IMG/VR virus record: IMGVR_UViG_3300027777_000174
Location: 1 to 21,900 of that record
Strand: one strand, 5' to 3'
Length of the DNA stretch: 21,900 nucleotides
DNA from: a virus
Shown: positions 2,182 to 4,938 of the stretch, piece after piece
How positions within the stretch are numbered: the stretch's first letter is position 1
Layout: each line of letters begins with the position of its first letter
Program-made: the position numbers and the translations under genes
The notes under the pieces: model-generated
The model's input: only the letters and a program-made list of their open reading frames with translations
What the model was told of the DNA's origin: nothing
Database searches by the model: none

Positions 2182-3198
2182 TTAAAATACTTTACTCTTT
2201 GTTATTCTCTTATTGTGTACTCTATAATCTCCGTTTGTCTCTTTCTCTAATATAGCAAACCCAGCGTTGTACTGATCCACGTGCTTACAATACTCAACGT
2301 TAGGGTGCATTAGCATACCAGTTGTCCAGCAAGTAAACATCTCGCCATCAAATTGGTTCTTTGTCGTGTATTCGCTTGTCCTATGAACGTGACTTGCAAT
2401 AGCCGATTGCTTAACCCTATCGTAAAGGGTCTTTGCTGGGCTTACACCGCTTCCCCTTTTGAATGTAGTATCTCCGTGTATTATTGGCAACTTACCAAAC
2501 TTAACGTGATCTAAATTCTTAAGTGGCTTTATATCAAATTCATTAAGCTTTAACAAATCCTCTAATTCAAACAATTGCAAACTTAACAATTCTGGTGCTT
2601 TGGTCCTCATATATCTTTCGTAGCGAAATTCGTGATTTGCATCCAAATTGTAATAAATAATTAAATCTGGGAATGACTTTCTTATAAATCCTAGCATCTC
2701 TAGTATGCTTTCGTATTCGTCACTAAAATTTCTTACTCTAGGGTCTTTTTGGAAATCGCTTAATTGGTAAAAGTCTACTAGGTCGCCATTGATAAATAAC
2801 GTATCTATTCCCTCTTTAGTTAAATGATTAAAGCAAACATCTATTGCCTTTGGGTCGTGGAATGGTACTTGAATGTCACTAATAAAGCCCATCTTCTTTA
2901 TTCCTATCGGTAAATTAAATACAACCTTTTCTTCTGCCCAAGTTTCAGGCTGAACAAAATGACTGCAACTTCTTTTAGTTTTTTCTAAGTATTCTTTATT
3001 GTTAACGGCCATCTTTACTGGTCCAGTCTTGCCTCTGTAATAGCGAATTAAATAACGCACATTCTCTTTGTCAGTAAAATGATTCTTGTTCTCCTTTAGG
3101 ATTAAAGTAGCTAAAGTGTTGCTAGGCATCCAAGCTGGATATTTTGCTAAGTAGTCAAGTATTATTTGACCACTTATTGTTGTTTTGCTCCCGCCCAT
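2182..3198 (-). CDS. Calcineurin-like metallophosphoesterase with N-terminal helical domain
   Basis: 338 aa. Residues 104-330 carry the metallophosphoesterase blocks in order: SDIQVPFHD (107-115), NGDLVD (137-142), DANHE (186-190), HGD (241-243) and SHVH (269-272). These bind two metal ions and hydrolyse phosphoester bonds in nucleic acids, nucleotides or proteins. Two positions differ from the family rule: Q110 stands where DxH has histidine, and NHE follows Asp-Ala rather than the usual Gly. The N-terminal 100 residues are basic and helical, possibly for DNA binding. The gene lies 16 bp after the endolysin stop. The substrate is unknown; DNA end processing or nucleotide turnover are possible roles. 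Confidence 0.85.
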   Translation of the reverse strand: MGGSKTTISGQIILDYLAKYPAWMPSNTLATLILKENKNHFTDKENVRYLIRYYRGKTGPVKMAVNNKEYLEKTKRSCSHFVQPETWAEEKVVFNLPIGIKKMGFISDIQVPFHDPKAIDVCFNHLTKEGIDTLFINGDLVDFYQLSDFQKDPRVRNFSDEYESILEMLGFIRKSFPDLIIYYNLDANHEFRYERYMRTKAPELLSLQLFELEDLLKLNEFDIKPLKNLDHVKFGKLPIIHGDTTFKRGSGVSPAKTLYDRVKQSAIASHVHRTSEYTTKNQFDGEMFTCWTTGMLMHPNVEYCKHVDQYNAGFAILEKETNGDYRVHNKRITKSKVF

Positions 3199-3214: not shown

Positions 3215-3820
3215 TTATGCTAAACTATCTCGCACTAAATCTGCTTCCGCTTCCCTTCTTACTACTAATCCGTCTAATCCTTTTCCTTCCCAGTGTCTTT
3301 TACTTTTCTCAATCTCTTCCGCTATACCTTCGTAATTCTTGTTCTTTACCATTTCTACAATGGCTTTCATTTCTGTTCTTGAATCTCCTTCTAACTTGTT
3401 TCCTCTGTTGTAAACCATAGAAACTAATGCGCCTTGAGTATCCTCGTTCAATGTTTCTAGTTCTGGGTAAATAGCCTTAGTCAATTTAAAATACTTAGGC
3501 ACCGAACATTTAACGAATACTTCGTATGCAATATTGTATGAAATTTTAACTTGCATCAATTCCCCTTTAAGCATTTGCTTGGCTTGGATGCCTTTAAGTC
3601 CTATAACCTTTCTTAATGGCTCCAGAAAATTAGGGGTTAATTTATTACCCCAGTCTAAAAAGAATTGTTTCTCGCTTACATAACCGCAATCGTAACCCAT
3701 TCCAATAGTAATGCCAGAATCCCCACCCGCCCAAATAGGGGATTGTAATTTCTTGTCATAGAATGCACGACCTCCAACCTCAAACTGAATAATTAAATCA
3801 ACTGCTTTTTTACTTAACAT
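3215..3820 (-). CDS. Endolysin, pesticin/T4-lysozyme-like muramidase
   Basis: 201 aa from ATG 3820 (MLSKKAVDLIIQFEVGG). A TTG nine codons upstream in the same frame is less likely. E14 in FEVGG, T38 and D44 in SGITIGMGYDCGY give a Glu-Thr-Asp set spaced +24 and +30, close to the catalytic spacing of pesticin and related T4-type lysozymes that cut the glycan strand of peptidoglycan. The C-terminal half keeps a helical lysozyme pattern, with ALVSMVYNRG and HWEGKGLDGLVVRREAEA. No signal peptide is seen, so export would need a holin. The start overlaps the stop of the 23-aa membrane peptide (ATGTTAA), at the end of the lysis chain. Confidence 0.85.
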   Translation of the reverse strand: MLSKKAVDLIIQFEVGGRAFYDKKLQSPIWAGGDSGITIGMGYDCGYVSEKQFFLDWGNKLTPNFLEPLRKVIGLKGIQAKQMLKGELMQVKISYNIAYEVFVKCSVPKYFKLTKAIYPELETLNEDTQGALVSMVYNRGNKLEGDSRTEMKAIVEMVKNKNYEGIAEEIEKSKRHWEGKGLDGLVVRREAEADLVRDSLA

Positions 3821-3885
3821 AAAAATAATATTAATAAAATAACCCAAACAATCAAACCACCCTTTAAGATTGTTCGTTCTTTCAT
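3814..3885 (-). CDS. 23-aa single-span membrane peptide nested between holin-like gene and endolysin
   Basis: Frame of 23 codons: MKERTILKGG, then LIVWVILLILFLC. The positively charged N-terminus (K2, R4, K8) followed by 13 hydrophobic residues predicts a single span with the N-terminus inside, ending on a cysteine. Its ATG overlaps the stop of the 64-aa holin candidate (ATGA) and its TAA overlaps the endolysin start (ATGTTAA). Overlaps on both ends with perfect frame closure are the main argument that it is translated. It could be an accessory lysis peptide, or simply a leader that carries ribosomes to the endolysin start. No homolog is known to me. Confidence 0.5.
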   Translation of the reverse strand: MKERTILKGGLIVWVILLILFLC

Positions 3886-4076
3886 TTTGTGAATTTATCT
3901 ATCGTAGCAAATCCCATACAAGCACAAACCAAATAAAATACCAATTCTCCTAGCTTAACATCCTTAGTCCATAAGTAAGTACCAAACAGAATAAAGGCAC
4001 CTATTGTAGCTATTATCCTTTTATGGCTTATAGAACCTCTTTCGTCTGCCAACATATTTTTAATAAAATCTCGCAT
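3882..4076 (-). CDS. Holin candidate, two membrane spans
   Basis: 64 aa. Residues 21-36 (IIATIGAFILFGTYLW) and 43-58 (GELVFYLVCACMGFAT) are two hydrophobic spans joined by a short charged loop. The hydrophilic N-terminus (MRDFIKNMLADERGSISHKR) and short basic end complete the class II holin layout. Such proteins open the inner membrane to release endolysin. The gene overlaps the upstream gene by 17 bp and the 23-aa peptide by 4 bp, and lies close to the endolysin. The assignment is by topology and position; the 57-aa protein at 4596-4769 is the other holin candidate. Confidence 0.65.
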   Translation of the reverse strand: MRDFIKNMLADERGSISHKRIIATIGAFILFGTYLWTKDVKLGELVFYLVCACMGFATIDKFTK

Positions 4077-4596
4077 AGTATCCTATTGAATATTGATTAG
4101 TAGTAACAGATATTGTAAATAAGCCCTTTTTAGCCGTCTTAATTCCTAATCCAACACCTATACCCACTTTATTGTCAAATGTCCTTAAATCGGCTAATAT
4201 GCCTAGAAAAGCCTCATTTTTGGATGGTATTGTCTTAATGGTTTCCACTTTTATCGTTTTTTGACTTATGTCTGCGTAAAAGCCTCTATTTTTTATCTTG
4301 TTTTGGGAGATTGTGTCGTTTATGATAAAAGTGCTAGAATCAACTTTTATAGTATCCGAGTAGGCTCGTACGTACGCATAATCTTGAACTATACGTACAG
4401 TATCGTGTATTAATGTTGTATCAATATCTAAAACAACAAAAGGGATGCTATCTCCCTTAATATATTTCTTCATTATTTCGTGCTTGTAAATAGTATCGGT
4501 ATGCGTTACTATTGTAGGTTCGTTTCCGTTGTACCTTCCTTTAAATATGAAGATAAGAACTACTGCAATCACTAAAGTAATTACAATGTCTCGCAT
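4060..4596 (-). CDS. Membrane-anchored protein, spanin candidate
   Basis: 178 aa. Residues 4-18 (IVITLVIAVVLIFIF) form an N-terminal membrane anchor with a basic residue after it, so the rest is likely periplasmic. The middle is rich in DT pairs (HTDTIYKH, DIDTTLIHDTV, YSDTIKVDS), and the C-terminus (about 145-178) alternates glycine and hydrophobics (GIGVGLGIK, FTISVTTNQYSIGYYARF) like beta strands. No lipobox is seen. In a Gram-negative lysis cassette, a single-span periplasmic protein beside holin and endolysin suggests a spanin that disrupts the outer membrane, but the sequence is not a classic Rz. Joined by TAATG overlap to the upstream gene. Confidence 0.6.
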   Translation of the reverse strand: MRDIVITLVIAVVLIFIFKGRYNGNEPTIVTHTDTIYKHEIMKKYIKGDSIPFVVLDIDTTLIHDTVRIVQDYAYVRAYSDTIKVDSSTFIINDTISQNKIKNRGFYADISQKTIKVETIKTIPSKNEAFLGILADLRTFDNKVGIGVGLGIKTAKKGLFTISVTTNQYSIGYYARFY

Positions 4597-4769
4597 TATT
4601 TGAATTTTTTAGTAGCTTTCCAATAATATCTTATGGCAAATACTCCAGATACAATAGCAACCAAACTTGCTAATAATGTGACAATAGGTTGAATGCTTGT
4701 GATACTTACTACGGCACCTAATCCACTTACTATCGTTAATGTGTCAGCTTGGTTGCTATGTGGCATCAT
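4596..4769 (-). CDS. 57-aa hydrophobic membrane protein, second holin candidate
   Basis: Read directly from the sequence. It starts at ATG 4769 (MMPHSNQADT) and ends with TAA sharing one base with the next ATG. Residues 11-28 (LTIVSGLGAVVSITSIQP) and 29-48 (IVTLLASLVAIVSGVFAIRY) are hydrophobic, giving one long or two short spans, and the tail YYWKATKKFK is strongly basic. Small size, hydrophobic core and basic tail are holin-like. Its own start overlaps the previous stop (TAATG). It might be the holin itself, an antiholin partner of the 64-aa protein, or an unrelated membrane protein. Confidence 0.65.
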   Translation of the reverse strand: MMPHSNQADTLTIVSGLGAVVSITSIQPIVTLLASLVAIVSGVFAIRYYWKATKKFK

Positions 4770-4915
4770 TATACTTCTTTTGCTTCCTCTACTGGAGGAT
4801 TTTGTTCTGCATTTAATTTACCTAAAAACTGCAATAGGGGTAAGCCGTATTGAGTTGGAATTTGATTAATAAATGCTTCTAAATCTTTTAGTTGTTGTTC
4901 GTTAATTGTTATCAT
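4769..4915 (-). CDS. 48-aa soluble peptide, first gene of the lysis chain
   Basis: Read directly from the sequence. ATG 4915, protein MITINEQQLKDLEAFINQIP, then a helix around YGLPLLQFLGKL and an acidic tail PPVEEAKEV. It is amphipathic and helical, with no membrane span. Its stop overlaps the start of the 57-aa membrane protein (TAATG). It sits 15 nt downstream of a TAnnTTTG box and is the first gene after the large fibre, so the lysis block may have its own promoter here. The family is not recognised. Confidence 0.6.
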   Translation of the reverse strand: MITINEQQLKDLEAFINQIPTQYGLPLLQFLGKLNAEQNPPVEEAKEV

Positions 4916-4924
4916 AGTGTTGAT

Positions 4925-4938
4925 TTTTTACAAATATA
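4925..4938 (-). promoter_or_regulatory. TAnnTTTG box before the lysis genes
   Basis: Minus-strand TATATTTG (4938-4931) continues into TAAAAA and ends 15 nt before the ATG at 4915. The 49-bp gap after the fibre gene is very AT-rich and has no clear hairpin. No TTG is seen at the proper -33 distance, so promoter activity is uncertain. Confidence 0.4.

Follow-up and report, generated by a model that had tools for sequence, protein, structure and literature searches.

A putative lysis operon with a conserved membrane microprotein and a lipobox-free protein in the spanin slot of an uncultivated virus

Six overlapping genes and their setting

The window analysed here is the whole stretch of 21,900 bases at positions 1-21,900 of the IMG/VR record IMGVR_UViG_3300027777_000174, which comes from an uncultivated virus, and it has a G+C content of 32.6%. 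The capsid protein was nearest to those of Cellulophaga phage phi10:1 and Flavobacterium phage 11b, with 32-34% identity, and two relatives of the lysozyme described below sit on Bacteroidetes or Chitinophagaceae metagenome-assembled genome contigs, which together make a Bacteroidota host likely. Between genes 651-956 and 1720-1989 lies a stretch of 763 bp (957-1719) whose only frames are weak ones of 71 aa each, and in which there was no Rfam match and no strong repeat; no RNA families were found across the window.

On the minus strand, six genes follow each other without a gap: s48 (4769..4915), encoding a soluble protein of 48 aa; h57 (4596..4769), encoding a two-span membrane protein of 57 aa; p178 (4060..4596), encoding a protein of 178 aa; h64 (3882..4076), encoding a two-span membrane protein of 64 aa; s23 (3814..3885), encoding a one-span microprotein of 23 aa; and the gene for a lysozyme of 201 aa (3215..3820). 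The block is flanked on one side by the gene for a tail-fibre-like protein of 1690 aa that has an S74 chaperone domain at its C terminus and on the other by a metallophosphoesterase gene. An earlier note on this DNA had described the six frames as linked by TAATG, TAATG, a 17-bp overlap, ATGA and ATGTTAA, with a membrane span in four of them. All of the frames and junctions were present, exact to the base, and hydrophobic segments were found in the expected number of proteins, one each in p178 and s23 and two each in h57 and h64, with none in s48 or the lysozyme.

The same note had called for a search for the small frames in related phages. The lysozyme, p178, h64, h57 and an M15 endolysin served as queries and gathered approximately 340 loci, giving 187 non-redundant IMG/VR contigs with the block in this or a rearranged form; these contigs (designated L below) are mutually related, and their sampling started from the cassette's own proteins. 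The frames were kept. Viral contigs contained 296 relatives of h57 and 268 of h64, and the frame of s48 was conserved as well. The order s48-h57-p178-h64-s23-lysozyme and the overlaps were retained in close relatives, nearly all of which showed an overlap of -1 at both the s48>h57 and the h57>p178 junction. The h64>s23 junction was -4 or -1 in 75 of 76 distinct haplotypes, and in the same set the s23>endolysin overlap was -4, -7, -11 or -25 wherever the endolysin adjoins. The pN/pS values were 0.40 for s48, 0.26 for h57, 0.28 for p178, 0.54 for h64, 0.56 for s23 and 0.13 for the lysozyme. Recurrence in relatives, together with the selection on s23 described below, supports the proposal that the small frames are genuine genes.

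All five junctions within the block overlap, compared to 7 of 21 elsewhere in the window (P = 0.012). Because a third of the other junctions overlap too, the pattern is weak evidence, and overlap alone is not diagnostic of a lysis unit. Judged from the sequences, conservation is strong evidence that the block exceeds chance, and the overlaps suggest that its translation may be coupled.

A promoter-like box at a fixed distance from s48

A single promoter-like box, TATATTTG, precedes the whole block at 4931..4938 on the minus strand, 23 nt ahead of the first ATG, that of s48, in agreement with the earlier claim that the block is one unit. The box matches the -7 element (TAnnTTTG) recognised by the Bacteroidota sigma-ABfr, in which the G is at -5 (PMC6847099), and transcription would thus start about 11 nt before s48, leaving a leader of about 11 nt. 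Motifs of this type are not rare in AT-rich DNA, with 39 observed in the whole window compared to 37.6 expected, and what counts is therefore the fixed position of the box. Among 93 distinct upstream regions, 84 have it no more than 60 bp from the s48 ATG, with a spacing of 22-25 bp in nearly all cases, even though the fibre genes that come before it vary between relatives. Of 712 other starts of cassette genes, just 16 have such a motif within the same distance. The box is thus a probable dedicated promoter of the lysis cassette.

The start of s48 has an A at -3, -6, -12 and -13, that is, at all four Kozak-like A positions. At -3 in the window, the s23 start has an A and the lysozyme start a T; the latter makes a poor Bacteroidota start and is consistent with a dependence on coupling. 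Since Bacteroidota messages are without Shine-Dalgarno sites (PMC6847099), termination-reinitiation at the overlaps of the block is plausible.

The lysozyme and the endolysin slot

The last gene of the block encodes a phage lysozyme, which matched Pfam PF00959 with 35.1 bits (cut-off 22.3; E 2e-8) over the C-terminal part of the domain and PHROG 7, an endolysin family, at 2e-7. Its dN/dS was 0.09. Across eight relatives Glu14 and Thr38 were invariant, and we take these to be catalytic residues; residue 34 is not a conserved Asp, as it is D, E or Q in the relatives. The protein has neither signal nor anchor, and the hydrophobic segment of a SAR endolysin was not found in its 201 aa. A search of cultured phages returned distant relatives in Xanthomonas and Bradyrhizobium phages, and by sequence no solved structure of the family was found.

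The same slot in relatives holds a lysozyme of the window type, a classical GH24 enzyme, an M15 peptidase, a VanY-like peptidase or a GH19 enzyme. These occupants bear out the earlier proposal of a lysis cassette, and in our reading such swaps are a better guide to the functions of places than any single sequence match. Several contigs carry tandem endolysins, an M15 peptidase followed by an overlapping lysozyme of the window type, for example at L294:4704-5763. The next gene in the window (2182-3198, minus strand) encodes the metallophosphoesterase, where many relatives (L149, L188) have an unrelated DnaQ-like exonuclease, and the position after the lysozyme gene is evidently another exchangeable slot.

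h64 as the main holin candidate

Hydrophobic segments occupy residues 21-36 and 45-60 of h64. Holins are small, have one to four spans and are encoded beside the endolysin, and h64 has these features; its adjacency is kept with the lysozyme, M15 and other endolysins. It weakly matched PHROG 1322, 'membrane protein'. A match to HxsA3 was judged to be due to chance (18.7 bits, cut-off 65). Among endolysin-bearing contigs, h64 was present in 137 and a different two-span protein of 60 aa in nine, with no contig containing both, and a two-span protein other than h64 fills the h64 slot in L188, L189, L226 and L228.

The second small membrane protein, h57, behaved differently: 135 of the 187 contigs carry it, 31 carry a 71-aa one-span coiled-coil protein and none carries both. 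Among PHROG families, the 71-aa protein weakly matched hemolysins and holins. The earlier note had seen two membrane-pore candidates here, and the constant holin-like endolysin neighbour h64 remains one. The claim of a second pore does not hold up as well, since a one-span coiled-coil protein can replace h57, which fits an accessory protein or regulator better.

The roles could also be reversed, with h57 as the true holin and h64 as an antiholin or regulator, or both proteins might form pores and act together. Each has two hydrophobic segments, and h57 persists in contigs without members of the h64 family (e.g. L188 and L189). Its matches to PHROG holin families (E 0.13 and 0.33) point the same way but are not significant. 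When h64 is missing, however, another two-span protein takes its place, whereas a missing h57 is replaced by the one-span coiled-coil protein, and in most lineages the neighbour of the endolysin is h64. We therefore consider a holin role for h57, alone or jointly, to be somewhat unlikely, and h64 as the main holin candidate to be the best reading of the sequences.

s23, a conserved microprotein beside h64

In the s23 family there were 61 different DNA sequences, encoding 48 different proteins of 23-31 aa. Every one of these proteins has one hydrophobic segment and a central Trp (48 of 48). In the interior of the gene 227 changes were inferred, 76 of them at the first, 46 at the second and 105 at the third codon position. 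Of the changes, 93 were synonymous compared to 55 expected (P = 7e-7), and omega was about 0.5. No stop codons had arisen where 13 were expected, a figure that is inflated because the sequences were chosen as open frames. By these measures s23 is evidently a real gene family under purifying selection.

Its closest association is with h64, which it adjoins in 78 of 79 contigs, the remaining one being truncated. Of 101 contigs with both p178 and h64, s23 was found in 78 and was absent from 23, a few of which are truncated. None of the 187 contigs combined s23 with the alternative two-span protein, and none from the u-spanin lineage had it. The gene that follows s23 varies, with a lysozyme of the window type in 62 contigs, an M15 peptidase in eight and a GIY-YIG gene in two. 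The most economical reading is that s23 may be a small partner of h64. GIY-YIG nuclease genes occur at varied junctions of the block with the neighbouring frames intact, namely between s23 and the lysozyme (L093, L112), between h64 and the lysozyme (L101) and after the lysozyme (L084).

It might instead be the act of translation that matters, with s23 as a coupling leader that delivers ribosomes to the lysozyme start and encodes a peptide that is itself functionless. The frame always overlaps the h64 stop and the endolysin start, and it has the A at -3 that the lysozyme start lacks. A leader of this kind is nevertheless unlikely, given that the amino acids are constrained, as seen in the omega, its P value and the invariant Trp, that the frame survives where a GIY-YIG gene splits it from the endolysin, and that in relatives without s23 the endolysin starts straight from the h64 stop (L084, L088).

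The overlap of the two frames, with a membrane span encoded just ahead of the enzyme, would also allow a programmed frameshift that joins s23 to the lysozyme and so forms a membrane-anchored, SAR-like endolysin. This was rejected as extremely improbable: the register is not conserved, as overlaps of -4 and -7 place the lysozyme in one register relative to s23 and -11 in the other, the overlap is without a canonical slippery heptamer, and in some contigs the nuclease gene intervenes.

p178 in the place of the u-spanin

Bacteroidetes phages were found in a survey to have u-spanins as their only spanin type (PMC12596118), and an outer-membrane step is therefore expected here. In 45 of the 187 contigs a u-spanin is present, p178 is present in 123, and the two never occur together; this exclusivity separates two lineages and does not represent many independent events. 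A lipobox was found in each of the 57 u-spanins of the sister cassettes, which also have a C-terminal span. In p178 the only hydrophobic span is N-terminal, at about residues 1-19, the C terminus is predicted to be beta, and a lipobox ([LVIFAM]x[GAS]C in residues 6-32) was found in 0 of 133 distinct members, so p178 has neither of the two features by which u-spanins are recognised. A profile comparison gave homology to the u-spanin a probability of 3%, and such homology was rejected. Inspection of the other block proteins and of frames of at least 20 aa between 2900 and 5300 revealed no lipobox, and thus no partner for p178 in a two-component spanin.

AlphaFold2 models of p178 had a low global pTM of 0.28-0.29. 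They showed an N-terminal span at residues 2-19 and a poorly predicted, DT-rich, extended middle with three strands, followed by C-terminal strands of moderate confidence at 128-138, 143-153, 158-165 and 169-175. A set of 50 relatives showed alternation of hydrophobic with Gly or polar residues in the first two of these strands, and 40 of these proteins end in Phe or Tyr. Alternation and a terminal aromatic residue occur in outer-membrane strands, and a soluble sheet may alternate too. Nothing significant was found for p178 in Pfam or PHROGs. Comparison with the PDB gave no known fold, as the best Z values of 5.2 and 5.1 (TamAB hybrid barrel) were within the chance range, and so was the likeness to the anchor of the trimeric autotransporter AtaA (Z about 4.2).

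From its occupation of the u-spanin slot we infer that p178 performs the outer-membrane step. Spanins are defined by a lipid anchor. The missing lipobox, the lack of u-spanin profile homology and the pTM of 0.28 were all counted against a spanin role.

Some contigs have an optional trio of genes, i87, i98 and i130, between the p178 or u-spanin gene and the h64 or endolysin gene (L005:2847-3720; L294:3509-4402; L234:3601-4524). It encodes an 87-aa one-span coiled-coil protein, a second coiled-coil protein, with a lipobox in all 50 members, and a protein that combines a signal peptide with a C-terminal span; about 80 bp of the gene for the last are shared with the lipoprotein gene. From their sequences, i87 and i98 look like an i-spanin/o-spanin pair, a type reportedly lacking in Bacteroidota phages. 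As the trio co-occurs both with p178 and with the u-spanin, p178 may not be the only protein with a spanin role.

A proposed lysis operon

Taken together, the block is probably a lysis operon consisting of s48, the accessory protein h57, the spanin-slot protein p178, the main holin h64, the modulator s23 and the lysozyme. Except for that of the lysozyme, we infer these functional roles; gene order, overlaps, conservation, swaps, promoter box and enzyme family were read from the sequence. Transcription would probably start at the TATATTTG box and give one message, on which the overlapping stops and starts would pass ribosomes from frame to frame. As h64 accumulated in the inner membrane it would form a lethal lesion and free the lysozyme, a cytosolic enzyme without an export signal. 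h57 may assist the holin, as XhlA accompanies XhlB, and the s23 span peptide, made in step via the ATGA overlap, may modulate h64. p178, with its N terminus in the inner membrane and a beta-rich periplasmic part, would replace the u-spanin and disrupt or bridge to the outer membrane.

Alternatively, s48, h57 and p178 could belong to a separate membrane module, for example for superinfection exclusion, which adjoins the lysis genes by chance. The endolysin and h64 do occur without s48, in the u-spanin lineage, p178 is without a family assignment, and overlaps are found across the whole genome. Against this, h57 lies right before a u-spanin and a GH24 endolysin in another lineage (L149, L193, L214) and is thereby tied to lysis, p178 occupies the exact u-spanin place, and the promoter box precedes the whole block. 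A chance neighbourhood of this kind thus appears quite unlikely, and we favour the single lysis operon.

A more speculative proposal is that p178 is a lipid-free spanin of reversed polarity, in which the N terminus spans the inner membrane, an extended beta stalk crosses the periplasm and the four C-terminal strands enter the outer membrane, where they may form an oligomeric barrel, and that the peptide of 23-31 aa which tunes h64 is the smallest known dedicated lysis protein. We consider this combination doubtful.

As far as the sequences tell, what is new here is s23 and the finding of a protein without a lipobox in the place of a spanin; the position of p178, the promoter and the wide distribution had been missed by the earlier note. 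In at least 123 non-redundant contigs a lipobox-free protein lies in the u-spanin place, so these phages may have a second outer-membrane route or do without one. s23 is a conserved membrane microprotein far under gene-caller cut-offs, in a lineage without a cultured relative for these genes. Both questions, the microprotein and the outer-membrane breach, are testable with six short genes.

Comparison with known systems

Among the cultured phages in the collection no relatives of h57, h64, p178 or the u-spanin were found, in line with the earlier statement that the arrangement matches no named Bacteroidota lysis system. Flavobacterium phage 11b (NC_006356) is a Bacteroidota siphovirus with a related capsid, and its lysis row consists of gp47, a one-span coiled-coil protein, gp48, a GH19 endolysin, and the u-spanin-like gp49. 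The 11b phage differs from the window in gene order and endolysin type and is without the h57, h64, p178 and s23 families. The gene for its gp49 (YP_112525.1, L338:28129-28593), a protein annotated as hypothetical, directly follows that of the GH19 endolysin; with its lipobox and C-terminal span, gp49 is a u-spanin candidate.

The u-spanin of the sister cassettes (L149, L193, L214) and p178 share their place in the cassette and have one inner-membrane span each. Similarly, the u-spanin gp11 of phage T1 has a periplasmic part predicted to be mainly beta (PMC6139136), and p178 resembles it in its one inner-membrane span and predicted beta periplasmic part. In contrast, u-spanins combine an N-terminal lipobox with a C-terminal span, whereas p178 has an N-terminal span, no lipobox and a C-terminal beta segment, without sequence homology. 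The Foldseek neighbours of p178 were uncharacterised phage proteins, one of them the DUF6808 protein A0A8S5PJU3 (E 7e-4 and 3e-3), with low TM-scores of 0.24-0.28. By sequence, 27 p178 members had no match to DUF6808 in Pfam or NCBIfam, which makes it a structural neighbour only, and a literature search for DUF6808 found no paper.

Cassettes with two membrane proteins offer the closest comparison for the block as a whole (PMC9025707, PMC13056207). In XhlA/XhlB, in LydA/C/D of P1 and in LysF1a/LysF1b of mycobacteriophages, at least two small membrane proteins adjoin the endolysin, as they do here, and the 71-aa replacement of h57 is like XhlA in having one span and a coiled coil. With families of the XhlA/XhlB type the block has no significant sequence match, and it adds a third membrane peptide of 23-31 aa.
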